Source: Microvirga tunisiensis (lineage in GTDB: Bacteria > Pseudomonadota > Alphaproteobacteria > Rhizobiales > Beijerinckiaceae). From it: a stretch of 64,000 nucleotides of DNA. Both the position numbers and the translations under genes were made by a program. Below are positions 45,400-62,527 of the stretch, piece by piece (the stretch's first letter is position 1; each line of letters opens with the position of its first letter). Where the stretch lies: the NCBI RefSeq assembly GCF_009296175.1, contig NZ_VOSK01000013.1, positions 1 to 64,000 on the forward strand, read 5' to 3'. Under the pieces are notes generated by a model. That model ran no database searches. It saw nothing but the letters and a program-made list of their open reading frames with translations, and had not been told where the DNA came from.

Positions 45400-45488
45400 T
45401 CATGGCCGGGCTTGTCCCGGCCACCCCGATCCTGTGAGACGCTGCGCTTTTCTTGATCGGAATCACCGGCACAAGGCCGGTGATGACG
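45400..45488. repeat. REP-like palindromic repeat, copy 1
   Basis: It begins TCATGGCCGGGCTTGTCCCGGCC and ends ATCACCGGCACAAGGCCGGTGATGACG, two hairpin units facing each other over about 89 bases between the cca and hemF ends. The same two units recur at 46514, 50211 and 56555. Confidence 0.75.
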
Positions 45489-49230: not shown

Positions 49231-50115
49231 ATGATGAAGCGTACTCTTCTCATCGCAGCCGCCGTTCTCGGCTTCGCCGCCCCGGCCTTCGCTGCCGGCG
49301 AGACCCCGGTCCCGCCGCAGCTCAAGTGGAGCTTCCAGGGTCCGTTCGGCACTTTCGATCGGGCTCAGCTCCAACGTGGCTTCAAGATCTACCGGGAGGT
49401 CTGCTCCTCCTGCCACGGCCTGAGCTATGTGACCTTCCGCAACCTGCACCAGCCCGGCGGCCCGGAATTCTCCGAGGCCCAGGTCCGCGCTCTGGCGGCG
49501 GAATACAAGATCCAGGACGGCCCGAACGAAGCCGGCGACATGTTCGAGCGTCCCGGTCGTGCGGCCGACCATTTCCCGTCTCCGTTCCCGAACGAGAACG
49601 CCGCCGCCTCGGCGAACGGCGGCAAGGCTCCGCCGGACCTGTCCCTGATGGCCAAGGCCCGCACCTACGAGCGCGGCTTCCCCTGGTTCATCACCGACGT
49701 GTTCCGCCAGTACTCGGAGAACGGCGCGGACTACGTGGCGGCGCTGCTCAACGGCTACGAGGAAGCCCCGGCGGGTTTCACGGTGCCGACCGGCGGTCAC
49801 TACAACCACTACTATCCGGGCCACGTGATCGCGATGCCGAAGCCGCTCAGCGACGGCCAGGTCGAGTATCCGAAGAACGAGGCCGGCCAGCCTCAGGTGC
49901 CTGAGACCGTGGAGCAGTATGCCCGCGACGTGACGGCCTTCCTCACCTGGACGGCGGAACCGCACCTCGAGGCTCGCAAGCGCCTCGGCTTCCAGGTCAT
50001 CCTGTTCCTGATCGTCCTGTCCGGCCTGCTCTACTTCACCAAGAAGAAGGTCTGGGCGCGGGTGGGCGGCGAGGTCGAAGGCCACGCCACGCCCCCGATG
50101 ACGCACAACCCATAA
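49231..50115 (+). CDS. petC: cytochrome c1 subunit of bc1 complex
   Basis: This 294-aa precursor has a signal peptide (about 1-20, PAFA-AG), heme c motif CSSCH (about 56-60), the axial Met in HVIAMPKPLSDG, and a C-terminal membrane anchor (LGFQVILFLIVLSGLLYFT) followed by basic residues. It passes electrons from the Rieske protein to soluble or membrane cytochrome c. A strong terminator closes the operon. Confidence 0.95.
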   Translation: MMKRTLLIAAAVLGFAAPAFAAGETPVPPQLKWSFQGPFGTFDRAQLQRGFKIYREVCSSCHGLSYVTFRNLHQPGGPEFSEAQVRALAAEYKIQDGPNEAGDMFERPGRAADHFPSPFPNENAAASANGGKAPPDLSLMAKARTYERGFPWFITDVFRQYSENGADYVAALLNGYEEAPAGFTVPTGGHYNHYYPGHVIAMPKPLSDGQVEYPKNEAGQPQVPETVEQYARDVTAFLTWTAEPHLEARKRLGFQVILFLIVLSGLLYFTKKKVWARVGGEVEGHATPPMTHNP

Positions 50116-50121
50116 GGATCG

Positions 50122-50146
50122 AGGCCCCGGTTTCCGGGGCCTTTTT
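50122..50146 (+). terminator. intrinsic terminator of the bc1 operon
   Basis: AGGCCCCGG, loop TTT, CCGGGGCCT, then TTTTC. It lies 7 bases after the petC stop. Confidence 0.92.
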
Positions 50147-50210
50147 CTTTTCTGGTGCTTCGTGCTGATCCGAAGCGCCGCGACAGCGAAGAGTGGTTGA
50201 GCCTTTAGAT

Positions 50211-50299
50211 GTCATGGCCGGGCTTGTCCCGGCCATCCCGATGTGAGGAGCGACCAGCCTCATTCGATCGAGATCACCGGCACAAGGCCGGAGATGACG
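50211..50299. repeat. REP-like palindromic repeat, copy 3
   Basis: GTCATGGCCGGGCTTGTCCC at the left and ATCACCGGCACAAGGCCGGA at the right, with the same arrangement and almost the same total length as copy 1 at 45400. Confidence 0.75.
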
Positions 50300-50386
50300 G
50301 AAGAGGTGGATTGCATCCAACCTCCATCAGAGAAATCATCCGGCGCCCTAGTGACACGGTGTCGAGCCGGCTTTATCCCGGTATCC

Positions 50387-51001
50387 ATGTTGCAGACGAT
50401 CGCCGACGATATCTGGGGCCTGCCCTGTCTCGCCTATCACGTCCAACCCAGCCTGGAGCCTGAGACTCGGGCCGCCTTCGAGGCGGCGCAGCGGGCCTTC
50501 GTCGAACTCTGGCCGGAACCGCTGCATGTGGGACCCAAGCATGGGCTGCATGTCACCATCTATCCGCTGGTGACGGTGAAGGGAGCCTTCGACAAGGACG
50601 CCTACTGGCAGAGGATCGCCCGGCGAAGCCAGGGCCTCCTGGAGGAGCTCTGCACCGGCCATCGAACCCTGGAACTGCGCTTCTCCCGGCTCAAGGTCAC
50701 CGATACGGCCATCATCGCGACTGCGACCGAGGAAACCGGCCTGATCGAAGCCATCCGGGAGAGGATCGTCCGCGACATCCCCCTGCCGCCGGGCGCGAGC
50801 CCGATCAACTACGATCTGATCCACACGACCCTGGCGCGCTACCGGACGAAAGCCTCCATTCCGGACGACGTCATCGAGCGCATCGAGAGCTTGCCTGTTG
50901 CCATCACGGCGCCCGTCAAGCAGATCAGGCTCGTTCGCGAGACGCTCTTTCCCTGCCTCGTGACGGACGAGATCGCGGCAATCCCCTTGATCGGAAGGTG
51001 A
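50387..51001 (+). CDS. 2H phosphoesterase-like (LigT/2'-5' RNA ligase superfamily) protein
   Basis: The 204-aa protein has two H-x-T motifs of the 2H superfamily: GLHVTIYPLV (about 59) and LIHTTLARYR (about 145), each in a hydrophobic strand context. This superfamily includes RNA ligase/cyclic phosphodiesterases acting on 2',3'- or 1',2'-cyclic phosphates. The ATG at 50387 is used, since the frame upstream only reads the REP repeat. The gene stands between the bc1 operon and mtnP. Its subfamily is not one I can name. Confidence 0.7.
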   Translation: MLQTIADDIWGLPCLAYHVQPSLEPETRAAFEAAQRAFVELWPEPLHVGPKHGLHVTIYPLVTVKGAFDKDAYWQRIARRSQGLLEELCTGHRTLELRFSRLKVTDTAIIATATEETGLIEAIRERIVRDIPLPPGASPINYDLIHTTLARYRTKASIPDDVIERIESLPVAITAPVKQIRLVRETLFPCLVTDEIAAIPLIGR

Positions 51002-51067
51002 TGCTTGGGACGCCGTTCTTCCTCGGCTATGACTGAGCCATAACAGCCCTAGGCAGGCGAGGATCAG

Positions 51068-51952
51068 ATGGCGAAGGCGGTTCTAGGCATTATCGGCGGA
51101 TCGGGGGTCTACGATCTGCCGGGGCTCGAGGATATGCGCGAGGAGCGCATCGGTTCTCCCTGGGGCGAGCCCTCGGATGTGCTGCGCATCGGGCGCATCG
51201 GCGAGACCGAGATCGCCTTCCTGCCCCGCCATGGGCGCGGCCATCGCCTGTCGCCATCCGACATCAACTACCGCGCCAATATCGACGTGATGAAGCGCGC
51301 CGGCGTCACCGACCTGATTTCGGTCTCGGCCTGCGGTTCGTTCAAGGACGAGTATTATCCCGGCTTCTTCGTGCTGGTGGACCAATACGTGGACCGCACG
51401 CACAGGCGCGAAAGCTCGTACTTCGGTCGGGGCTGCGTCGCCCATGTGCCCATGGCGCATCCGGTCGGCCCTCTGCTGCGCCAGCGCATCGCCGATGCGG
51501 CGGTGGCGGAAGCGATTCCGTTCACTCTCGGCGGCGCGCTGGTGTGCATCGAGGGCCCGCAATTCTCGACTTACGCCGAGTCGATGACCTACAAGAAGCT
51601 CGGCTACGACGTGATCGGCATGACGGCGATGCCGGAGGCCAAGCTCGCCCGCGAGGCCGAGATCACCTATGCCACCATCGCCATGGTGACCGACTACGAT
51701 TGCTGGCATCCGGAGCACGACAACGTGGACGTGGCCTCCGTCGTCGCCGTCGCGCACCAGAACGCCACGAAGGTGGCCCGCCTGATTGCCCGCGTGGCCA
51801 AGGACTTTCCGGCCGAGCACGAGCCATGCCCCGCAGGCTCCGACCGGGCGCTCGACGGCGCCATCATGACGGCTCCGTCCGCCCGCGATCCGGAGCTTTT
51901 GAAAAAGTTGGATGCGGTGGCCGGGCGAGTGCTAAACCCCTCGCAAGCGTGA
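51068..51952 (+). CDS. mtnP: S-methyl-5'-thioadenosine phosphorylase
   Basis: This 294-aa enzyme of the PNP/UDP phosphorylase family has LGIIGGSGVYDLPGL, the phosphate-binding FLPRHGRGHRLSPSDINYRA, GALVCIEGPQFSTYAES and the purine/ribose site VIGMTAMPEAKLAREAE. It splits methylthioadenosine to adenine and methylthioribose-1-phosphate. The adenine is the substrate of the next gene, apt, 69 bases downstream. Confidence 0.94.
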   Translation: MAKAVLGIIGGSGVYDLPGLEDMREERIGSPWGEPSDVLRIGRIGETEIAFLPRHGRGHRLSPSDINYRANIDVMKRAGVTDLISVSACGSFKDEYYPGFFVLVDQYVDRTHRRESSYFGRGCVAHVPMAHPVGPLLRQRIADAAVAEAIPFTLGGALVCIEGPQFSTYAESMTYKKLGYDVIGMTAMPEAKLAREAEITYATIAMVTDYDCWHPEHDNVDVASVVAVAHQNATKVARLIARVAKDFPAEHEPCPAGSDRALDGAIMTAPSARDPELLKKLDAVAGRVLNPSQA

Positions 51953-52021
51953 TCGCTCGCCTCTTGCGCTTACAGTGCTTTCAGTTCCATCTCAATTCGA
52001 CACCCAGGCAGGCTTGACCCC

Positions 52022-52567
52022 ATGGACCAGCGTCTCCTCACCGACCTGAAATCCGCGATCCGCTCGATTCCGGATTATCCAAAGCCCGGCGTCATCTTCC
52101 GGGACATCACGACCCTGCTGGGCGACGCGCGGGCCTTCCGGCGCTCGGTGGACGAACTCGTTCATCCCTTCGCGGGAGGGCGTGTCGACAAGGTGGCGGG
52201 CATCGAGGCGCGCGGCTTCATCCTGGGCGGCGCCATCGCGCATCAGCTCTCGTCGGGCTTCGTGCCCATCCGCAAGAAGGGCAAGCTGCCCCATGAGACG
52301 GTGCGGATCGCCTATTCGCTCGAATACGGCGTCGACGAGATGGAGATCCACACCGATGCCATCGGCCAGGACGAGCGGGTGATCCTCGTGGACGACCTCA
52401 TCGCCACCGGCGGGACGGCGGTCGCGGCCAGCCAGCTCCTGCGCCAGATGGGCGCCAACATCATCGCCGCCTGCTTCATCATCGACCTGCCCGATCTCGG
52501 CGGCGCCGCGAAGCTGCGCGACCTCGGTGTCGAGGTACGCAGCCTCGTCAGCTTCGAGGGGCATTGA
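52022..52567 (+). CDS. apt: adenine phosphoribosyltransferase
   Basis: This 181-aa enzyme has [18 protein letters not shown] near the N-terminus, [17 protein letters not shown], and the PRPP-binding [19 protein letters not shown]. It converts adenine and PRPP to AMP. Together with mtnP it recovers adenine from polyamine and autoinducer by-products. Confidence 0.95.
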
Positions 52568-52572
52568 TCTCT

Positions 52573-52620
52573 ATGGCGTCATCCCGGGGCGGCGCAGCCG
52601 AGCCCGGAATCCATAGCCGC
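52573..52620. repeat. short dispersed-type repeat after apt
   Basis: TGGCGTCATCCCGGGGCGGC, GCAGCCGAGCCC and GGAATCCATAGCC: an imperfect inverted repeat of a kind often scattered in alphaproteobacterial genomes. No second copy is in this window. The 120 bases beyond hold no gene. Confidence 0.4.
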
Positions 52621-52740
52621 TGACAATGCAGGATCGAGCGGAGGCGCTGCCGTCGCGCTTTCATCTCGCGCGTCGTCTCCGTGAATTCCTGCCGTCAGGG
52701 GGACGACAGCGGAGGCCGGTGGCAAGCCGTCAGCGACCTC

Positions 52741-53751
52741 TCAAGCCCGCCTTTCCCAGAACACCATCCCGTCGAACGCGAACACCTCTTCCCCATTCTG
52801 GTTCGTGCCCGTGTTGTGATGGAACACCAGGCCCCAGCCAGGGCGGGACGCGGAGGCGCGTTTGGCGGTCACGGACGAGCGGTAGGTGATCGTGTCGCCA
52901 GCATAGACGGGCTTGAGCCATTTCAGGTTGGAGAAGCCGGGGGAGGGGCCGAGCCGCGCGGGCCGCTCGCCGCGGCTGAGCGCATAGGCGCGGATGCGGT
53001 CGCGGTGGCCGATCATCTGCTTCATCCAGACGCTTGCCGTATGCCAGCCCGAGGCGCACAGGGCGCCGAACAGGCTGTTCTTGGCGGCCTCTGCATCCAC
53101 GTGGAAGCGCTGCGGGTCGAATTGCCGGGCAAAGCCGATGATGTCCTCGGGCGTGAAGGTGTAGGAACCCAGTTCCTCGGTCTCGCCGACGACGAGGTCC
53201 TCGAAATAGGGATTGGCCGAGATTCGTGGAATCTCCCGCTCCGGCGCGGAGCCGGGCAGGCCATCTGCTGCAGCCGCGAGGACGTTGCGGCCCTCGCCTT
53301 CGAACGGTTCGGCATCCCTGGTTGCGAACATCACCCAGTTGGTCTGGGTCAAAGCGGTTTCGTCGACCTGGTTCAGCATGTCGAAATGGAACCGCACCAG
53401 ACCGAGCGAGGGCCTGCTCTTGGAGATGCGGCTCTCCAGAACCGTCATGCGCGAGCGCAGGGTGTCGCCGGGCCTGACGGGCTTCACCCATTTCACTTCC
53501 TCGATGCCCGGCGATCCCATGGAGGAGGAATCCAGGATCAGCCCATCGGCGAGGAGGCGCATGTTGAGGCTGCAGCTGTGCCAGCCCGAGGCGATCAACG
53601 TGCCGATGAAGCTGTCCTTGGCGGCAATCTCGTCCACGTGGAAGGGCTGCGGATCGTATTCTCGCGCGAAGGCGAGGATGTCGTCCTTCGACACGGTGAG
53701 AGGGCCGAAAGTCTCGGTCAGGCCCGGAGGAAGATCTTCGAACGTACGCAT
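52741..53751 (-). CDS. tandem MaoC-like (hotdog) dehydratase
   Basis: This 336-aa protein is built of two MaoC/R-hydratase hotdog domains in tandem. Domain 1 has REYDPQPFHVDEIAAKDSFIG and ASGWHSCSLNMRLL; domain 2 has RQFDPQRFHVDAEAAKNSLFG and ASGWHTASVWMKQM. Each has the D-P-Q-x-F/H-x-D hydratase motif, so both sites could be active. Members hydrate enoyl-CoA or act on mesaconyl-/methylmalyl-type thioesters; the acyl group is unknown. The ATG at 53751 is used; a TTG two codons earlier is open. Confidence 0.85.
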   Translation of the reverse strand: MRTFEDLPPGLTETFGPLTVSKDDILAFAREYDPQPFHVDEIAAKDSFIGTLIASGWHSCSLNMRLLADGLILDSSSMGSPGIEEVKWVKPVRPGDTLRSRMTVLESRISKSRPSLGLVRFHFDMLNQVDETALTQTNWVMFATRDAEPFEGEGRNVLAAAADGLPGSAPEREIPRISANPYFEDLVVGETEELGSYTFTPEDIIGFARQFDPQRFHVDAEAAKNSLFGALCASGWHTASVWMKQMIGHRDRIRAYALSRGERPARLGPSPGFSNLKWLKPVYAGDTITYRSSVTAKRASASRPGWGLVFHHNTGTNQNGEEVFAFDGMVFWERRA

Positions 53752-53776
53752 GAGCAATCCCCTGTTGAGCTCGCCC

Positions 53777-53822
53777 TAGAGCATCGGGCCTAAAAGTGGA
53801 ATCCACTTTTTGGATGAGTTCG
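53777..53822. repeat. CCCAAAAGTGG-type repeat, copy A
   Basis: TAGAGCATCGGGCC is followed by AAAAGTGGA, A, TCCACTTTT (53792-53810). It is a 9-1-9 palindrome related to the repeats at 54651 and 63791. Confidence 0.6.
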
Positions 53823-53914
53823 GTGCTCCCGTTCTCTCCGGGTGCATCTTGGTCCTACGTTCGGGCCCTCGTGCAGCCGATGCCGAAAGCAGGCTTTTGG
53901 ATCGTCGACAGGTC

Positions 53915-54583
53915 TCAGGGCGAAAACTGCCCGGCCGCGTTATGCGCGAGCCGGATCGGTTCGGGCAGGCGGTATTTGGGGGAGCAGCGCAGGACGAGTT
54001 CGGCTGCCGTCGGAATATCGGCCAGGTGTCCCGGGGAGATGAACATCGGATTCTTGGCGGTGCGGGTGCGCAACGCGACGCCGATGACCTCCTTGCGGTC
54101 GACCAGGGGAGCGGCTGAGCCCTTCTCCTCGCCCAGATCCTTGTAGCGTCCGCACAGGAGCGTCTTGCCGCAGCCAACAGTGGGGCGCTGAAGCCACAGG
54201 CCCATATGGCTCGCGATGCCGATGCGGCGGGGATGGGCGATGCCCATGCCATCGAAGAGGAAGACGTCCGGCTCGGCTTTCAGTTTCTCGAACGCCTCTT
54301 CGAGAACCGGGCCCTCACGAAAGCTCAGGAGACCCGGAACATAGGGAAAAGGGGTCGGGCGTTGCGCCAGCACGGTCTCCACCGGCAGGAAGCCCGGATA
54401 GGTGACCACGACGATAGCCGCCTGCGACTGCTCGTTCTTCACGCTCACGTCGACGCCAGCCACAAGATGCACCGCATCGAGATCGATGGGGCGGTCGGAC
54501 ACGACCTCTCTTCTCAGCTGCTGCTGAAGGGCAATGGCCTCGGAGGGGGAGAGGTCCCAGGAATGTTGATGGTGAAGCTGCAT
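53915..54583 (-). CDS. nfi: endonuclease V
   Basis: This 222-aa DNA-repair nuclease has the first catalytic Asp in VAGVDVSVKN, the Tyr/Pro/Glu motif FPYVPGLLSFREGP, Asp in FLFDGMGIAHPRRIGIASHM, and HMGLWLQRPTVGCGKTLLCG with VGVALRTRTAKNPMFISPGH. It cleaves one base 3' of deoxyinosine. The ATG at 54583 gives the normal length; a start 10 codons earlier is possible. It is flanked on both sides by copies of the palindromic repeat. Confidence 0.92.
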   Translation of the reverse strand: MQLHHQHSWDLSPSEAIALQQQLRREVVSDRPIDLDAVHLVAGVDVSVKNEQSQAAIVVVTYPGFLPVETVLAQRPTPFPYVPGLLSFREGPVLEEAFEKLKAEPDVFLFDGMGIAHPRRIGIASHMGLWLQRPTVGCGKTLLCGRYKDLGEEKGSAAPLVDRKEVIGVALRTRTAKNPMFISPGHLADIPTAAELVLRCSPKYRLPEPIRLAHNAAGQFSP

Positions 54584-54650
54584 GGTGAAGCATTGACGAC
54601 GACAAGGCTTCAACGCTCAAGGTTCCGGAACGATCCGTTTTGATCTGGAT

Positions 54651-54765
54651 CATGGCGCATCGTGCGGAAAAATGGCCATGGTATTCAGCGCCGGGCGACG
54701 CGCCACTCAAGGATTGAGCGTCGGATGGATCCCAAAAGTGGTGCAAACTTTGGGGCCGATGCCCC
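54651..54765. repeat. GCATCGTGCGG / CCCAAAAGTGG repeat, copy B
   Basis: GCGCATCGTGCGGAAAAATGG (54655-54675), GGATTGAGCGTCGGATGGATC, then CCCAAAAGTGG...ACTTTGGGGCCGATGC. It is the same order of blocks as at 63791-63897, with some changes. Confidence 0.65.
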
Positions 54766-54776
54766 GGCCAGAGAGA

Positions 54777-54802
54777 CAATCTGCCCTTCAATGGGCAGAT
54801 TG
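54777..54802. promoter_or_regulatory. 10-bp inverted repeat upstream of truncated globin
   Basis: CAATCTGCCC, TTCAAT, GGGCAGATTG: perfect, 54 bases before the globin start. It is either an operator or a terminator-like leftover of the repeat. Confidence 0.4.
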
Positions 54803-54855
54803 ACCCGGACAGGGGCGTGCGGTCATGTCCGGACGGATTGAGCAGGAGAAAGGCA

Positions 54856-55281
54856 TTGGCCGATTCAGCCGCCACAGGCCGCAGCATCCCGATCGTCAGC
54901 CCGGCCGAAGGCGTTTCGGACGATCTGATCCGGCAGCTCGTGGAGACCTTCTATGACCGCGTGATCCGCGATCCGGAGCTCGGCCCCATCTTCCATAAGG
55001 CTCTTTCCGGCCGCTGGAGCCAGCATCTGGCGCTGATGGTGGATTTCTGGTCCTCGATCGCGCTGAGAACCGGCCGCTACCAGGGCAAGCCGCAGGCCGC
55101 CCATTTTGGCCTTCCGCTCACGCCGGAGCTGTTCGCCCGCTGGCTATCGCTGTTCGAGAAGACGGCTCAGGACATCTGCAAGCGGGATGTGGCGGATTTC
55201 TTCGTGGACCGAGCGCGGCGCATCGCGGAGAGCCTGCAGATCGGCCTCGGGATCGGACCGAAGGCGCTGCGGCTTCCCTAG
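54856..55281 (+). CDS. group III truncated hemoglobin
   Basis: This 141-aa 2-on-2 globin has LVETFYDRVIRDPELGPIFH (helix B region), RWSQHLALMVDFWSSIALR and the proximal His in GKPQAAHFGLPLTPELFARW. The A-H-x-x-L-P pattern marks group III (P) proteins. They bind oxygen, NO or related ligands, with likely roles in redox or nitrosative stress. The TTG at 54856 is chosen because AGGAGAAAGG stands just before it; a GTG 13 codons earlier lacks that support. Confidence 0.87.
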   Translation: MADSAATGRSIPIVSPAEGVSDDLIRQLVETFYDRVIRDPELGPIFHKALSGRWSQHLALMVDFWSSIALRTGRYQGKPQAAHFGLPLTPELFARWLSLFEKTAQDICKRDVADFFVDRARRIAESLQIGLGIGPKALRLP

Positions 55282-55437
55282 AGCGGATTCCGCTTGGCCA
55301 CTTCGCCGGCAAAGCTCCGAAGCACCGCTCCGTTCGGATTCTGAGCGGGCGATCCACCGCCACAAATGGTACGAAGACCCACAATCTTCATAATTGTCTG
55401 GAAACCTGTGCGGCACATCGGCTCCTGGGAGCCTTCC

Positions 55438-56212
55438 ATGATGGATCGCCGCACTTTCCTTGGATCGCTCGTGGCCATTGCCGCAGCGACACCGCTTCGT
55501 TCGGGCCCGGCACGAGCTGCGGATCCTCTCCCGGCCGCAAGTAGCGTCGTGCTTGTGCACGGGCTGTTCGCCGATGGGTCGTGCTGGTCCGAAGTCATTC
55601 CGCGCCTGCAGGCAGCCGGGCTCGACGTCAGTTCCGTTCAAAACCCACTGACGAGTCTCGACGAGGCCGTTGCGGCGACCCGGCGCGTGCTGGCCCGGTC
55701 AGGAAGGGCCCACCGTACTGGCCGGGCACTCCTTCGCCGGCATGATCGTCACGGAAGCGGGTGTCGACCCGAGGGTCTCTTCGCTCGTCTACGTGGCGGC
55801 ACGGGCGCCCGATGCCGGCGAGGACTACGCGGCCCTCGCCATGCAGTATCCGGCGCCTCCGGCGACGGCAGGAATCGTGTACGACGGCGATGAGGGGATG
55901 CTCAGCGAGGCCGCGTTCCTGCGCGACTTCGCGGGCGATCTGCCGGAGGAACGGGCGAAGGTGCTCTATGCCGTGCAGGAGCCGTTCCACAAGGCGTTGC
56001 TGGCCGGCAGGACGGGGCAGGCGGCCTGGCGGTCGAAGCCGAGCTTTTATGCTGTCTCGACGGATGACCGAACGATCAATCCCGACCTGCAACGCTTCAT
56101 GGCCAAGCGGATGGGGGCGGAAACGATCGAGGTGAAGGCGAGCCATCTCTCGCTCATCTCGCAGCCCGACATCATCGCTTCGCTCATCCTGAAAGCGGCA
56201 GGCCATCGATAG
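55438..56212 (+). pseudogene. secreted alpha/beta hydrolase interrupted by a single-base insertion
   Basis: The two overlapping frames give one alpha/beta hydrolase of about 257 aa. The first part has a twin-arginine-type signal (MMDRRTFLGSLVAIAA), the oxyanion motif VVLVHGLFADGSCW and DEAVAATRRVLAR. The second continues QEGPTVLAGHSFAGMIVTEAG (nucleophile Ser in GHSFAG) and ends with His in IEVKASHLSLISQPD. Removing one T at 55699 (CGGTCAGG to CGGCAGG) joins them perfectly. It is either a recent pseudogene or a sequencing error. The residual signal of the first frame runs on as Arg-rich nonsense. Confidence 0.82.
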
Positions 56213-56293
56213 CACCTGCAGCCTCTTCGAGCCTGAGGAGTGCGCAAACGACCTCACGATCGCTGCTGCGGCCCTTCGGGTCCGCACGAGGCG

Positions 56294-56446
56294 CTAGCGC
56301 TCCCACCACTCGAGCTTGTCGTTGCCGCTCCTGGGCAGCAGGGACGAAATGCCGATCATGAGAAAGCCGCAGGCCACGAGCACGCCGATGAGGAATTCGG
56401 CATTGCCGAGCCCGGGAGAGACGAAGTTGTCAAAAAAAGCCTGCAT
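56294..56446 (-). CDS. 50-aa single-pass membrane protein
   Basis: The product starts MQAFFDNFVSPGLGNAEFLI and has one hydrophobic helix (GVLVACGFLMIGISSLL, about 21-37). It then ends in a charged tail SGNDKLEWWER. AAGGA stands before the ATG. The composition (helix, then basic/aromatic tail) is that of a genuine small inner-membrane protein. I know no family. Its start codon and first Phe codons lie in the 3' arm and T-run of a strong hairpin (56436-56471), so expression may be controlled by RNA structure. Confidence 0.65.
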   Translation of the reverse strand: MQAFFDNFVSPGLGNAEFLIGVLVACGFLMIGISSLLPRSGNDKLEWWER

Positions 56447-56471
56447 GAATCACATCCTTCATGCAGGCTTT
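56432..56471 (-). promoter_or_regulatory. terminator-like hairpin covering the start codon
   Basis: On the minus strand AAAGCCTGCATGAA, loop GGATGTGA, TTCATGCAGGCTTT, continuing as TTTT: a perfect 14-bp stem. The start ATG is in the 3' arm, the purine-rich ribosome site borders the loop, and the T-run encodes Phe-Phe. It could act as terminator, attenuator or translation lock. Confidence 0.7.
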
Positions 56472-56554
56472 GTCGCAGAACGGCCCTGAACGGACGAAAA
56501 AGCCCCTGTTCAGGATTCCGACAGATTGCTGAAGAGCCTCTTTTCCAGCCTCCA

Positions 56555-56645
56555 TGTCATCACCGGCCTTGTGCCGGTGACCTCATTAAGAAGTCCGCGG
56601 CGTTTCTCGGACTGGGATGGCCGGCACAAGACCGGCCATGACCAG
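56555..56645. repeat. REP-like palindromic repeat, copy 4 (inverted order)
   Basis: TGTCATCACCGGCCTTGTGC at the left and GATGGCCGGCACAAGACCGGCC at the right. It is the two-unit repeat of copies 1 and 3 read from the other strand. Confidence 0.75.
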
Positions 56646-56695
56646 GAGTGGATGCGGGAGAAAGCCGTCCTCAAGGATCAGAGGATTCGTTTCTC

Positions 56696-57793
56696 TTAAG
56701 TATTGAAGCGGAAGTGCATCACGTCGCCGTCCTGCACCGTGTATTCCTTGCCTTCCAGCCGCAGCTTGCCCGCATCGCGTGCGCCGGCCTCGCCCTTGAG
56801 CGAGGTGTAGTCCGCATAGGCGATGGTCTCGGCGCGGATGAAGCCCTTCTCGAAATCCGTGTGGATCACGCCGGCGGCCCCGGGCGCCTTGGTGCCCCTG
56901 GTGATCGTCCACGCGCGGGCTTCCTTCGGGCCGACGGTGAAATAGGTGATCAGGCCAAGCAGTTCGTAGCCGGCGCGGATCACCCGGTTGAGGCCGGGTT
57001 CCTCGAGGCCCACGGCGTCGAGATAGTCCTTCTGCTCCTCGGGTGGCAGAACCGCGATTTCGCTCTCGATCTTGGCCGAGACGACGACGGCCTTGGCGTC
57101 TTCTTCCTTGGCGCGCTCGAAAACGCGTGCAGAGAATTCGTTGCCCTTGTCGGCGGAAGCTTCCTCCACGTTGCAGACGTAAAGCACGGGCTTGGAGGAG
57201 AGGAGGCCGAGCATCTGGAACAGGCGCTCTTCCTCGGCCTTGCGCTCCACCAGACGGGCCGGCTTGCCCTCGCGCAGCAGGGGCAGGGTGCGGTTGACGA
57301 GATCGAGGGTTTCCTTCGCTTCCTTGTCGTTGCCCTTGGCCTTCTTCTCGAGCGCGGTGACGCGCTTCTCCAGGCTGTCGAGGTCGGCCAGCATCAGCTC
57401 GGTCTCGATGGTTTCGATGTCGGCGATGGGATCGATCTTGCCTTCGACGTGCGTGATGTCCGTGTCCTCGAAGCAGCGCACCACATGGGCGATGGCATCG
57501 ACTTCGCGGATATTGGCGAGGAACTGGTTGCCGAGACCTTCGCCCCGGGACGCGCCGCGCACGAGGCCCGCGATGTCCACGAAGGTGAGGCGCGTCGGGA
57601 TGATCTGCGCCGAACTGGCGATCCCTGCGAGCTGATCGAGCCGCTCATCCGGCACGGCCACGTCGCCCACATTGGGCTCGATGGTGCAGAACGGATAGTT
57701 GGCGGCCTGCGCGGCCGCCGTCTGAGTCAAAGCATTGAAGAGAGTCGACTTGCCCACATTCGGCAGGCCGACGATGCCCATCTTGAAGCCCAT
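56696..57793 (-). CDS. ychF: redox-regulated ATPase/GTPase YchF (Obg family)
   Basis: This 365-aa P-loop protein of the YchF/OLA1 type has G1 [19 protein letters not shown]3 [20 protein letters not shown] and the altered G4 YVCNVEE that favours ATP. A coiled coil lies around 130-165 and the C-terminal TGS domain has [18 protein letters not shown]. It binds ribosomes and takes part in stress-related translation control. The pth gene lies 4 bases upstream, giving a cotranscribed translation unit. Confidence 0.95.
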
Positions 57794-57797
57794 GGCC

Positions 57798-58421
57798 TCA
57801 CTCCTTGATTGCGCTGGCCTTTTCTCCGGGCCGCTTCACGTCCGTCCAGCCTCTCGCCTCCATGGCGAGGTGGACCTTGTTCTGAAAGCTCCCGTCCTCA
57901 GCCTTGGCGAGAAGGGCAGCGTTGTCTGCGATGATCCGGCACAGGTCGTCGACCCAGGCCCCTTCGCTTTTTCCGAAATCACCCAGCACATGGTTCTGCA
58001 CCAGAGCCTTGTGGCCGGGATGGCCGATGCCGAGGCGTACGCGGCGATACTCGTTGCCGCAATGGGCCGAGATGGAGCGAAGCCCGTTATGGCCGGCATT
58101 GCCGCCGCCGATCTTCACGCGCAGCTTGGCGGGCGAAAGATCGAGCTCGTCGTAGAAGACCGTCACGTCATGCAGCGGAATCTTGAAGAAGTTCTGCGCT
58201 TCTCCCACCGCCTGGCCGGACAGGTTCATATAGGTCTGCGGCTTGATCAGCAGGACCTTCTCGCCCCCGATCAGCGCGTCCGCCGTTTCCGCATGGAAGC
58301 GTTTGCGCCAGGGGCCTGCGTTGTGCACGCGCGCAATCTCGTCCACGGCCATGAAACCGATATTGTGGCGGTTCCTGGCGTAGCGCGATCCGGGATTGCC
58401 GAGGCCGACGAAGAGGCGCAT
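57798..58421 (-). CDS. pth: peptidyl-tRNA hydrolase
   Basis: This 207-aa enzyme has [20 protein letters not shown] with the catalytic His, [36 protein letters not shown] and [12 protein letters not shown]. It frees tRNA from peptidyl-tRNA dropped by stalled ribosomes. It is 4 bases from ychF and 87 bases downstream of rplY, with a terminator-like hairpin in the latter gap. Confidence 0.95.
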
Positions 58422-58439
58422 CGCGTGTCCTGCTCATAA

Positions 58440-58468
58440 GAAACGCTCCGGCCTTGCGGTCGGAGCGT
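58440..58468 (-). terminator. hairpin between rplY and pth
   Basis: Minus strand: ACGCTCCGACC, loop GCAA, GGCCGGAGCGT (one G-U pair), then TTCTTA. It is a likely partial terminator, letting ribosomal protein L25 be made in excess of Pth and YchF. Confidence 0.65.
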
Positions 58469-58507
58469 CGAAGCCGATCGATGGGATTGAACGCCCGTCA
58501 AAGCCGA

Positions 58508-59125
58508 TTAGGCAGCAGCGGTGCCTTCGGCAGCAGCCGGAGCCGCATCCGATTCCGTGAGGCCGGTCGGGGCCACGACGGTCACGAGGGTCATGTTCTC
58601 GGTCGAGGTCGCCTTGGCGCCGTTCGGCAGGGCGATGTCGTTGAGGTGAACCGAGGAGCCGATTTCGAGGTCGGCAATCGAAACCTCGATGAAGTCCGGG
58701 ATCGTGTCGGACGGAACGAGCAGTTCCACCGAGTGCTCGACGATCTGGAGCGCGCCACCGCGCTTCACGCCGGGGCTCTTCTCCTGGCCGACCACGTGAA
58801 CCGGCACCACGACCTTGATCTCCTGACCCTGCGCAAGGCGCAGGAAGTCGACATGGACGGGGAAATCCCGCACCGGGTCGAGCTGGTAGTCGCGCGGAAT
58901 GGCGCGAACCGTGTTGCCGTCCACATCGATCTCGAAGATCGTGGTCAGGAAGTGACCGGCGAAGATCAGCTGCTTGGTCTGGTTGAAGTCGAGGGCGATC
59001 GCCTGGGCCGGCTGGCCGGCTCCGTAGATGACGGCGGGAACTTGGCCTTGGCGACGAACGGCCCGGGCGGCCCCCTTGCCGGCCCGGTCGCGCGCCACGG
59101 CCTTGATTTGCTTTGCTTCGCTCAT
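58508..59125 (-). CDS. rplY: 50S ribosomal protein L25 / general stress protein Ctc
   Basis: This 205-aa protein has the L25 domain (about 1-95: VPAVIYGAGQPAQAIALDF, FLTTIFEIDVDGN, PVHVDFLR) and the C-terminal TL5/Ctc domain (about 100-185: VPVHVVGQEKSPGVKRGGAL, SVHLNDIALPNG). An Ala-rich tail closes it. It binds 5S rRNA. The ATG at 59125 follows AAAGGA; the open frame upstream is not coding. A sigma-70-type promoter lies about 120-150 bases upstream. Confidence 0.95.
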   Translation of the reverse strand: MSEAKQIKAVARDRAGKGAARAVRRQGQVPAVIYGAGQPAQAIALDFNQTKQLIFAGHFLTTIFEIDVDGNTVRAIPRDYQLDPVRDFPVHVDFLRLAQGQEIKVVVPVHVVGQEKSPGVKRGGALQIVEHSVELLVPSDTIPDFIEVSIADLEIGSSVHLNDIALPNGAKATSTENMTLVTVVAPTGLTESDAAPAAAEGTAAA

Positions 59126-59245
59126 GGTCGTGGTCCTTTGAAATGGGTTTAAAAACCGATGGCCGCCCAGGTTTCTTGAAAAACCTACCGGCGGCCATGA
59201 GGTCCGCGCCCGTGCCTCCAAGGGTGTCGAGCGGGCGCGACGCGG

Positions 59246-59274
59246 CTTATAGAGAACAACCACCGAAAATGCAA
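59246..59274 (-). promoter_or_regulatory. probable housekeeping promoter of rplY
   Basis: Minus strand: TTGCAT, 17 nt, TATAAG, near the consensus TTGACA-N17-TATAAT. It gives a leader of about 110 bases. Confidence 0.5.
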
Positions 59275-59312
59275 CAAGTTGGCTGCCGTTCGGGTGGCCT
59301 GCCCGACAACGC

Positions 59313-59852
59313 TCAGCCAAAGGGCCGCGTGGCCGTGACCGTCGATGCGAGCTTCCTGAGGAGGTCGGCCAACCGGACTTGCTCGTCCTCGGTCAGCCCG
59401 TCGAGCATGGCCGCCTCGATCGCCATGTCCTCCCGAAAGGCCTCCCGCGCGCGCGCGATCCCTTCCTCCGTGAGCTCCACCGGCAGGCTGCGCCCGTCAC
59501 CCTCGGCGCTGGCTCGTCGGATCAAGCCGGCCTTGGTGAGACGGTTCAGGCGGTCCGTGAGGCCGCCGGACGAGATCATCAGGGACCGGAATAGCTCCGT
59601 CGGGCGGAGCCGGTAGGGCGGTCCGGATCGAAGCAGCGAGAACAGGACATCAGCCTCGCCGCTGTCCAGTCCATGGGTCTTGAAGATGGCTTCGGTGGGC
59701 GGGCGCGCCGTCAGCGTGATCCAGCGGGCGCGGCCCAGGATCGCCATGCCGCGCGTATCGACCTCCGGGAGCTCTGCCGCCCATTGGGCGCGTCGTTCGT
59801 CGATCCCGTCCTGAGAACAGGCAGGGGAAGCAGGTTCAATTTGTCTTGACAT
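59313..59852 (-). CDS. MarR-family transcriptional regulator
   Basis: This 179-aa winged-helix protein has GLDSGEADVLFSLLRSGPPYRLRPTELF leading to the recognition helix LMISSGGLTDRLNRLTKAGLIRR and the wing SAEGDGRSLPVELTEEG. MarR proteins repress divergent or own genes until a phenolic or other ligand binds. It is divergently transcribed from an EamA-type transporter, and two palindromic operator-like sites fill the intergenic region. Confidence 0.9.
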   Translation of the reverse strand: MSRQIEPASPACSQDGIDERRAQWAAELPEVDTRGMAILGRARWITLTARPPTEAIFKTHGLDSGEADVLFSLLRSGPPYRLRPTELFRSLMISSGGLTDRLNRLTKAGLIRRASAEGDGRSLPVELTEEGIARAREAFREDMAIEAAMLDGLTEDEQVRLADLLRKLASTVTATRPFG

Positions 59853-59888
59853 CGAGATAATTACCCACTTATCTTTGCATCAAGATAA
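59841..59888. promoter_or_regulatory. two MarR operator-like palindromes
   Basis: Site 1 TTGTCTTGA, CA, TCGAGATAA (59841-59860, imperfect). Site 2 TTATCTT, TGCATC, AAGATAA (59869-59888, perfect arms). The start codon of marR lies inside site 1, so autorepression is likely. Confidence 0.65.
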
Positions 59889-59957
59889 ATTCCTGTCGTG
59901 CCGCTTGCAACATATCGTAGGCCAAGTCGCACGAGAGCCCTACCCGGGGGTGCCTCC

Positions 59958-60860
59958 ATGATCGCAGCGCGTCTCTCTGGTGCGTCGGAATCGGCCATCA
60001 GCCTTCTCGGCCTGTGCGGGTTCCTCTTTGCCAGCCGGATCATGATGAACAAGGTGGCGCTGGAGACCGGCATTCAGCCCTTTCAGCTTGGCGTCTTCGC
60101 CAATTTGGGCGCCGGATTGTTCCTGCTGCCTTGGCTCGCCGCCTTCCGGCAGAGGATCCCGACCGCGCCGGAGCATCTGGTGCTGTATGTCGTTCTAGGT
60201 CTCGTCAGCTTCGCGGTGCCGAGCGTGCTGTCCTACTTCGTCATCGAGAGGGTGGGGCCTGCCTACACGTCCATCGTCTATTGCCTGTCGCCGCTGCTCA
60301 CCATGACCTTCGCGGCGGGCCTCGGCATCGAGCGGATGTTCCTGCGCCGCTTCATCGGGATCGTGATCGGCTTCACGGGCATGATCGCCTTGGTTCAGCA
60401 GCAGGTCCTGCAGATCGATATCGGGCAGCCGGTCTGGGTGGCCGTCGGCCTGGCGATCCCGGTCTGCGCGGCGGTGGGCAACATCATTCGGTCGGCTTGG
60501 TGGCCGAAGGGCACGTCGGCGCTCGCTTTCTCCTGCGGGGCATCGCTCAGCTCCAGCGTAATGGTGGCCCTGATGGCGCCCGTCTTCGAAACGCCCCTGA
60601 TCTGGAGATTCGCCGATCCCGCGATCCTCTCATGGCTGATGGGCTTGGGAGCGATGTCAGCCCTGTCGCAGGTGATGAACTTCCGTCTGCAGCAGATCGC
60701 CGGACCGGTGGTCTTCAGCCAGATCGGCTATTGGGGAACGGGCTTCGGTGTGCTGCTCGCCGCCATCCTGTTCGGAGACGTGCTGACGGCTTTGTCCTTC
60801 GCAGGGCTCGCATGCATCATGGCCGGTGGCATCCTGGCCAACCGCCGCGCGGAGATCTGA
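59958..60860 (+). CDS. EamA/DMT-family transporter
   Basis: This approximately 300-aa protein has ten hydrophobic helices in two EamA repeats, for example FLFASRIMMNKVALETGIQP at the start, VGPAYTSIVYCLSPLLTMTF ending repeat 1, and GPVVFSQIGYWGTGFGVLLAAILFGD in repeat 2. DMT transporters move amino acids, amines or drugs. The ATG at 59958 is preferred over an earlier in-frame start (59898) close to the operators. Control by the divergent MarR is likely. Confidence 0.87.
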   Translation: MIAARLSGASESAISLLGLCGFLFASRIMMNKVALETGIQPFQLGVFANLGAGLFLLPWLAAFRQRIPTAPEHLVLYVVLGLVSFAVPSVLSYFVIERVGPAYTSIVYCLSPLLTMTFAAGLGIERMFLRRFIGIVIGFTGMIALVQQQVLQIDIGQPVWVAVGLAIPVCAAVGNIIRSAWWPKGTSALAFSCGASLSSSVMVALMAPVFETPLIWRFADPAILSWLMGLGAMSALSQVMNFRLQQIAGPVVFSQIGYWGTGFGVLLAAILFGDVLTALSFAGLACIMAGGILANRRAEI

Positions 60861-60904
60861 GGGAGTAGGCGGCCGTGACTATCGAGGCCTGGCCGCATCG
60901 GCAA

Positions 60905-61837
60905 TCAGTCGAACAGGCTCGACACCGAGCTTTCCGTTGCCGTGCGGCCGATAGCCTCGCCCATGAGCTGGGCGATGGAGATGACCCGGATGTTGTGGGC
61001 CACCTTCACGGCTTCTGTCGGCATGATCGAATCGGTGATCACGAGTTCCTTCAGCCGGGAGCCCGCGATGCGGGCCACCGCGCCGCCGGAGAGGACGCCG
61101 TGGGTGATGTAGGCGTAGACCTCCTTCGCCCCGTTGGCCAGGAGGGCGTCGGCGGCGTTCACCAGGGTGCCGCCGGAATCGACGATGTCGTCCATGAGGA
61201 TGCAGGAACGGCCGGACACGTCGCCGATGATGTTCATCACCTCGGACTCACCGGGACGCTCGCGGCGCTTGTCGACGATGGCGAGCGGCGCGTCGATGCG
61301 CTTGGCGAGCGCGCGGGCACGCACCACGCCGCCCACGTCAGGCGAGACCACCATGCGGTTGCCGCCGTCGAGATGATCCTTGATGTCGCGCGCCAGGGTG
61401 GGAGCGGCAAAGAGGTTGTCGGTCGGGATGTCGAAGAAGCCCTGGATCTGACCCGCATGGAGGTCCAGCGTCAGCACGCGGTCGACCCCCGCATGAGCGA
61501 TGATGTTGGCGACGAGCTTGGCGGAAATCGGGGTACGGGCGGCAGGTTTCCGGTCCTGGCGGGCATAGCCGAAATAGGGGATCACTGCCGTGATGCGGCG
61601 GGCCGAGGCCCTGCGCAGCGCATCCGTAATGATCAGAAGCTCCATCAGGTGGTCGTTCGTGGGATACGAGGTCGACTGGATGATGAAGGTATCCTCGCCG
61701 CGCACGTTTTCCTGGATCTCGACGAAGACCTCCATGTCCGCAAAGCGCCTGACCTGGGCCTTGGCCAACGGAACGTTGAGATAGGTGGAGATGGCCTCCG
61801 CCAGCGGACGATTGGAATTTCCCGCAACGAGCTTCAT
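60905..61837 (-). CDS. prs: ribose-phosphate pyrophosphokinase
   Basis: This 310-aa enzyme makes PRPP from ribose-5-phosphate and ATP. It has [78 protein letters not shown] and the PRPP loop [22 protein letters not shown] is used by the apt and pncB products in this same window. The ATG at 61837 matches the family start; 17 upstream codons in the open frame do not. Confidence 0.95.
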
Positions 61838-61990
61838 GCAAGCAACTTTGGCTTCGAGTGACCGATAACACCCGCTGCGCAATGCCATAATTCCTGCACG
61901 GCTGGGCGCAAGGCTCTTAGCAGCGATATGAAACCGTCACAATACATGAAGGTCTTCGATACGCTGCAAGTTTGGCCTGTGGCCATGCAA

Positions 61991-62527
61991 TCACTGCATC
62001 GCAACAGGGGGTTCCTCGCCCGAGACCTCCGCTGTCTGAATGGGTGCTTCGGGCGTGGCGGGCGTTTCGGACACGGTTTCGGACTTGGACGCCGTCAGGA
62101 ATTCGGCGATCTCGTCCATGCTGGCCTGAGCCAGCTTGGCGAGTGCCGCCTTGTCGAGACTCGAGATGGAGGAGGCGGGAGCGGGGCTCGATCCCGCTAG
62201 GCGCTTGGCCCGGCGTTTCTGGGAATCGAAGACGTCCCAGACATAGGCCACCTTGGTTTCCCCATCTTCGGTCGAGGTCGACAAATAGCCGCGGACCCGG
62301 TAGCGCGCCTCGGCGCTGGCGCCGACGAGATCGACCTTGCGATCGGTTGCCGCGCTGGTCAGTTCGTCCACCAGGGCCGTGCGGATGGGAGTCGGGGCGC
62401 CGTCGATGCTCTCCAGGGCCACCACCGGAACGCCCTGCGGCGATCCGCTGAACGACCCCTGGCAGGCTCCCAGAGCCGCCGTCACGACCATGGCGGCAAG
62501 CCGTCCCGCATGCTTCATCCCGGCCAT
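61991..62527 (-). CDS. putative lipoprotein of unknown function
   Basis: This 178-aa precursor has a lipobox-like end of the signal peptide (VVTAALGAC, Cys at about 22). A mature domain follows with VPVVALESIDGAPTPIRTAL, LVDELTSAATDRKVDLVG, ARYRVRGYLSTSTEDGETKV and VAYVWDVFDSQKRRAKRL. A low-complexity Thr/Glu/Ala-rich tail ends it. I recognise no named family; similar outer-membrane lipoproteins occur near prs in Rhizobiales. A start three codons later is possible. Confidence 0.7.
   Translation of the reverse strand: MAGMKHAGRLAAMVVTAALGACQGSFSGSPQGVPVVALESIDGAPTPIRTALVDELTSAATDRKVDLVGASAEARYRVRGYLSTSTEDGETKVAYVWDVFDSQKRRAKRLAGSSPAPASSISSLDKAALAKLAQASMDEIAEFLTASKSETVSETPATPEAPIQTAEVSGEEPPVAMQ

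Follow-up and report, generated by a model that had tools for sequence, protein, structure and literature searches.

Start-codon RNA thermometers hold the AUG inside a stem, and the known RNA thermometers have imperfect stems, unlike near-perfect ones. Where a start codon is enclosed in a near-perfect stem, standard folding energetics lead one to expect a strong drop in initiation. In the RNA phages MS2, PRR1 and phage M, translation is gated by the replicase operator, a short hairpin around the initiation codon. This operator is bound by the coat protein, and a purine left unpaired in its stem is important (PMC3561173). The tisB mRNA of Escherichia coli relies on a standby site some 100 nt upstream, together with processing and an antisense RNA (PMC7708055).

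Here, we describe a hairpin that contains the start codon of a small membrane protein gene in Microvirga tunisiensis (GCF_009296175.1, contig NZ_VOSK01000013.1), from a genus of soil bacteria. It lies on the minus strand of the window, by which we mean the whole stretch of 64,000 nt that was analysed. As in the MS2-type operator, the hairpin encloses the initiation codon and its pairing is kept: 38 of 47 Microvirga genomes retain, with G-U included, at least eight of the nine AUG-proximal pairs. Unlike that operator, the Microvirga stem is long, near perfect in many genomes and chromosomal. The locus shares with tisB and other type I toxin mRNAs a small membrane protein whose ribosome site is sequestered in structure (PMC7708055). 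It differs from tisB in being a syntenic core gene, and apparently also in its leader, where only about 40 nt separate an upstream dyad from the AUG. These appear to be likenesses in kind, and membership in the phage-operator or type I toxin families cannot be claimed.

Our preferred reading, to which we give a probability of roughly 0.6, is that the hairpin acts in cis as a translational gate on the small membrane protein gene. Folding of the transcribed leader would pair the AUG, the initial codons and in many cases the leading Shine-Dalgarno bases, and would leave the remaining Shine-Dalgarno bases in the loop. Initiation on the small membrane protein would therefore be low wherever the stem has formed and stays closed. 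The hairpin would then repress translation in the cell, and protein synthesis would probably need it to open, under some condition, by cotranscriptional docking of a ribosome on the loop, a helicase or S1, an RNA-binding protein, an sRNA or an RNase. The observed steps of this scheme are the stem, its persistence in most of the genus, pairing that tracks codon 3 and the calculated occlusion of the start. A near-perfect stem over the start codon of a conserved gene, kept by most of a genus, amounts to a natural test of translation from a paired AUG. The locus also draws attention to a core membrane protein, assigned to no Pfam or NCBIfam family, that is encoded beside ychF, a gene tied to translation.

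The small membrane protein gene

The open reading frame (56294-56446, minus strand, stop included) encodes 50 amino acids (MQAFFDNF...LEWWER) and is supported by the list of open reading frames, by relatives and by hydropathy, with a single hydrophobic stretch that reaches a maximum of 2.48. A protein profile search found the gene once in each of 47 of the 48 Microvirga genomes, so the frame that a preliminary description of this DNA had called a small membrane protein is borne out as a real gene. In each of the 47 it lies downstream of ychF in the same orientation, with 76 to 468 bp between it and the end of the ychF match, and in 37 of the 47 the protein ends in WWER. The one genome that lacks the gene (G007) also lacks the hairpin and the dyad in the stretch after ychF, and the stem without the frame, which the preliminary description had regarded as damaging to its proposal, was thus not encountered.

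Single copy, same place and presence in 47 of 48 genomes is the pattern of a core gene, and it bears on whether the locus could resemble a type I toxin, that is, a hydrophobic peptide whose mRNA is closed by its own fold and silenced through processing or an antisense RNA. Like tisB (PMC7708055), the gene combines a small membrane protein with a ribosome site that is sequestered, which speaks for such a locus; the core-gene pattern speaks against it, and we consider it very improbable. A sigma-70 scan of positions 50000-62000 gave a single promoter-like site at 59846 and none near the locus, which is weak evidence as regards an antisense RNA.

The family appears confined to the genus in the genomes sampled. 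All eight loci obtained from named records are from Microvirga, and a family-wide draw of 298 genomes gave 24 matches in Microvirga and one weak match outside it. That match (locus L057, E 8.5e-4, one genome of 298) was not counted as a homolog; it is a 59-aa hydrophobic frame in another genus (positions 188-367 of the locus, minus strand) that weakly resembles the window protein and lies downstream of a peptidase-like frame, which we take to be an M3-type peptidase, with no clear ychF match in that locus. We also inspected 28 ychF loci among the 57 genomes of other genera that have ychF. A mechanical look for hydrophobic frames of 38-90 aa in the 300 bases downstream found nothing related; the one hydrophobic frame seen past ychF (locus L153) is unrelated by eye.

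The known protein families of Pfam and NCBIfam were rejected as an assignment. In Pfam, the sole match of the window protein stays below the cut-off, and NCBIfam gives none; among 18 family members, the lowest E value is 0.0082 with Pfam and 0.029 with NCBIfam. In the open literature, searched by titles and the starts of abstracts and with subscription journals mostly outside its scope, nothing was found on the leader or the protein.

The start-codon hairpin

The hairpin consists of a perfect 14-bp stem (100% complementary) with an 8-nt loop, as the preliminary description had proposed. On the minus strand, the 5' arm (AAAGCCTGCATGAA) occupies 56471-56458, the apical loop 56450-56457 and the 3' arm 56449-56436, and pairing of the 5' arm is also found across relatives. 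The 3' arm does contain the ATG (56446-56444), and it runs on through CAG and GCT into codon 4. A Shine-Dalgarno-like AAGGA (56459-56455, minus strand) spans the top of the stem and the loop and is therefore partly paired. The predicted folding energy of the 91-nt region is -34.7 kcal/mol, against -24.9 +/- 3.1 for 200 shuffled sequences (z = -3.1, with one shuffle in 200 as good), so that the fold goes beyond what shuffles provide.

The stem had also been described as ending in seven T. The run is present (56432-56438, minus strand) and encodes Phe-Phe, with codons 3-5 reading GCT TTT TTT, but three of its T lie within the stem and four follow it. Rfam gives ten hits at E up to 10 between 56200 and 56750, none of which attains its gathering score, and a known Rfam element was rejected for this region. 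A conserved mini-ORF in the leader was likewise rejected by eye, as the frame of the ATG in the 5' arm varies between genomes and several have no such ATG.

Stem and T-run across Microvirga

Since the stem carries a T-run, the hairpin might be an intrinsic terminator that ends transcription of pth-ychF, with the small gene expressed by read-through. In outline it resembles the intrinsic terminators of the genus, with an A-run, a GC-rich stem and a T-run, and a hairpin of similar style (AAAAAGCC...GGCTTTTTT) elsewhere in genome G016 (locus L171) shows that the style exists in Microvirga. Runs of at least six T overlapping or following the stem occur in 16 of the 47 genomes, the window included. 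The locus differs from those terminators in that its T-run is coding and has four T past the stem, and in that the T-run is missing from the majority of relatives whose stem is good; a consensus terminator scan did not call the site.

The distribution of the two features separates them. Beyond the 38 genomes with good stems, six have 6 or 7 of the nine AUG-proximal pairs and three have five or fewer. Relatives that keep the frame without the stem, which had been put forward as evidence against the layout, are therefore found in part, in those three and those six. The weak stems include rows far from the window, namely G010, G002 and G031 (4-5 of 9) and G022 and G005 (6). Pairing of the first two Shine-Dalgarno bases with the dinucleotide that precedes the AUG is possible in 37 and 41 of the 47 genomes. 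These counts rest on the aligned arm, as a free search for the best arm chose other arms in a few rows; for G332, the second ATG, which is the conserved one, was taken as the start for the arm, cost, codon and stem/T-run counts.

All 16 genomes with a run of six or more T fall among the 38 with good stems, leaving 22 of the 38 with a good stem and no such run. On the ychF tree, all 16 sit inside a single well-supported group, which comprises 34 rows; the other 13 rows include seven with a good stem and none with a T-run. The root of this tree was set by choice on G010 and G022, so that the older and the derived state are not readable from it. Because the T-run is missing from 22 of 38 good stems and confined to one group, the terminator is not the conserved thing, and as the stem is kept without the T-run, the element is best read as a start-codon hairpin rather than primarily as a terminator.

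Codon choice in the 3' arm leans the same way. Alanine codon 3 is GCT in 21 of 22 cases, against 124 of 2039 alanine codons in ychF, and phenylalanine codon 4 is TTT in 17 of 20, against 13 of 655 in ychF. Phenylalanine codon 5, in the U-tract outside the stem and beyond most stems, has no clear preference for TTT (13 of 28, with TTC in 15), although its share of TTT exceeds that of the later codons of the small gene (42 of 177). Bacterial genes often begin with AT-rich codons for unrelated reasons, and with that caution the codon bias would favour the stem over the T-run as the conserved feature.

Taken as a general layout, the sharing of start-codon bases between termination and translation, which the preliminary description had seen as the unusual property of this site, is thus not upheld, given the 22 good stems without six T and the unselective codon 5. 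The terminator look is the product of two phenylalanine codons in some species, and we regard an intrinsic terminator as the explanation of the conserved element as quite unlikely. In the 16 genomes with at least six T, the window among them, some termination may nevertheless take place.

Covariation of the stem

Covariation was assessed on 42 of the 47 rows (36 distinct) over a 13-pair helix, and the same rows were used to build a model, R1; since G002, G005, G010, G022 and G031 were omitted for weak stems or an insertion, the covariation figures flatter the stem. Paired cells make up 88.5% of the total, against 81.3% in shuffled and 22-44.4% in slid alignments. The covariation score is 0.215, against 0.122 +/- 0.012 for shuffles (none of 500 as high) and at most 0.117 for slid arms, and cells altered on both sides number 29 against 12.1 (none of 500). 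Two of the five measures do not clearly exceed shuffles: pairs changed on both sides number 4, against 4.1 in shuffles and 5 in one slide, and further pair types number 14, against 12.0 (42 of 500 as high). The complementarity of the arms is owed largely to conserved letters common to the rows.

The informative pairs are columns 6-36 (G-C, U-A and C-G) and 5-37 (A-U, G-C, G-U and U-A), and they track changes of codon 3. Parsimony on the ychF tree, with all 47 rows included, gave six compensatory double changes against 44 pair-breaking ones, and a slide of -2 also gave six. Tests of independent pairs had at most four pairs on well-supported branches and reached no significance, with pair p10 leaning the opposite way. 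With the entire alignment of 151 columns as input, RNAalifold failed to recover the hairpin; in our reading, this is because the alignment splits the 5' arm at the insertion of one row. Taken together, the alignment lends moderate but not conclusive support to covariation, and the tree-aware counts are weak.

Predicted occlusion of the start codon

The calculated cost of freeing the AUG has a median of 9.0 kcal/mol over the 47 leaders and of about 0 over 43 ychF starts (those obtained from the 47 loci); it exceeds 3 kcal/mol in 40 of 47 leaders and in none of the 43 ychF starts. Opening the whole ribosome site (-13 to +12) has a median cost of 18.6 kcal/mol against 12.3 for ychF, so in these calculations the whole-site contrast is smaller than that for the AUG alone. 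Within the window, the small gene stands at 10.7 kcal/mol, and none of 26 other starts, which are the Shine-Dalgarno-supported ones among 58 mechanically picked open reading frames, reaches 8.9, the highest being 5.9.

Temperature had been suggested as one way to switch the hairpin. An RNA thermometer would melt with heat and free the AUG, and the paired AUG, which this hairpin has in common with start-codon thermometers, and a small membrane protein as product are in keeping with one. For the window sequence, the calculated cost falls from 10.7 kcal/mol at 37 C to 8.0 at 60 C and 5.4 at 80 C, so the stem is predicted to remain shut at 60 C and is, by calculation, far too stable. Temperature switching is accordingly not borne out, and we rejected a thermometer as an extremely improbable account of the locus.

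The upstream dyad

About 40 nt upstream of the ATG lies a dyad (56487-56512, minus strand), which in the window reads TGAACA-N14-CGTTCA. The form TGAACG-N14-CGTTCA, with at most one letter changed and a spacing of exactly 14, occurs in 45 of the 47 leaders, with nearly invariant half-sites. A dyad was found in 46 rows, and in 44 of them it ends 37-42 nt short of the AUG; the exceptions are G332, with 31 nt to the first ATG (the conserved ATG is 9 nt further), and G005, with 50 nt. The exact dyad was found at 45 places in the 48 genomes, 39 of them at the small-gene locus and six elsewhere (in G000, G003, G007, G012, G015 and G016), while a reversed control pattern gave four. A regulon defined by the dyad was rejected on these counts. 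Of the six off-locus sites, the one inspected, in G007, is in an open stretch without the gene.

The dyad raises the question of whether the conserved element acts as DNA, with TGAACG-N14-CGTTCA and the second repeat, CCTGCAT-N13/14-ATGCAGG, serving as operator or promoter half-sites and RNA pairing as a by-product. The fixed spacing of the first dyad points that way, as do its weakly covarying inner pairs: taken as an RNA stem, the dyad has nearly invariant core pairs and a score of 0.111, with one slide at 0.115, and a clean RNA stem was rejected for it. The spacing of the second repeat is 13 or 14 in 40 of 47 leaders, and GAAC...CGTT resembles an ECF promoter. Across all leaders, however, the second-repeat spacing ranges from 11 to 15 and the non-core pairs change jointly, which is a better fit to RNA pairing.

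An ECF promoter would have a model in EcfG, for which the consensus is GGAAC-N16-CGTT (PMC7083833). The best NepR locus carries GGAAC-N16-CGTT upstream in 12 of 12 genomes, and four more NepR-like loci (L112-L115) have no site of this type in the stretch scanned. The dyad reads TGAAC-N15-CGTT, not the form at the NepR locus, and an EcfG (general stress response) promoter was rejected. A DNA-level element strikes us as unlikely overall; the dyad itself is perhaps a promoter or operator, or else a second stem of the leader.

A fuller version of the translational gate can be put together from these pieces, and we find it doubtful. A genus-specific core gene would be shut off by the hairpin until a specific trans-acting factor or cotranscriptional loading of ribosomes on the loop opens it, the dyad would be the second half of a two-part leader, and one species group could also terminate at the coding U-tract. 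If so, a single set of bases would serve pairing, termination and coding in that group.

Genome-wide searches and neighbouring sequence

Model R1 was searched against 12 genomes, with 150 candidates scored per genome. The small-gene locus was found in 11, with the opposite strand also matched in several, and five weaker places lay elsewhere. One of these is L171 and another (L172) lies within open reading frames; the three remaining ones are weaker, with E 0.0026 to 0.04. On this search of 12 genomes, with one of the two inspected off-locus places terminator-like and the other within open frames, a regulon of the same hairpin was rejected. At L171, in the middle of the locus, the terminator-like hairpin has near-identical letters (AAAAAGCCTGGATGG...CCATCCAGGCTTTTTT) and comes just after an open reading frame.

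Upstream of the leader, ychF (56696-57793, minus strand; Pfam YchF-GTPase_C and MMR_HSR1) is itself preceded by pth, encoding peptidyl-tRNA hydrolase (57798-58421, minus strand; PF01195), and we infer that the two share one transcript. In E. coli, ychF and pth form one operon and YchF is tied to translation under stress (PMC8779481).

Some features of the surrounding window are recorded here in their own right. On the plus strand, positions 55366-56212 hold an alpha/beta hydrolase gene seemingly spread across two frames, with the Pfam match in the second, which suggests a frameshift in the gene or in the assembly. The window's assembly, G000, spans 8.8 Mb over 1022 contigs. It has a contamination of 8.78% and contains 14 NepR-like matches, and so may represent more than one strain.

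In 12 of the 47 genomes, more than 150 bp separate the ychF match from the ATG, and in all 12 the extra sequence is upstream of the dyad. In the window, a palindromic repeat region (56550-56648) lies between ychF and the leader. The repeat, CCGGCACAAGRCCGG, occurs at 45466, 46520, 50277, 56563 and 56621, one pair of which falls between ychF and the leader; these five matches, with one mismatch allowed, compare with 0.01 expected.
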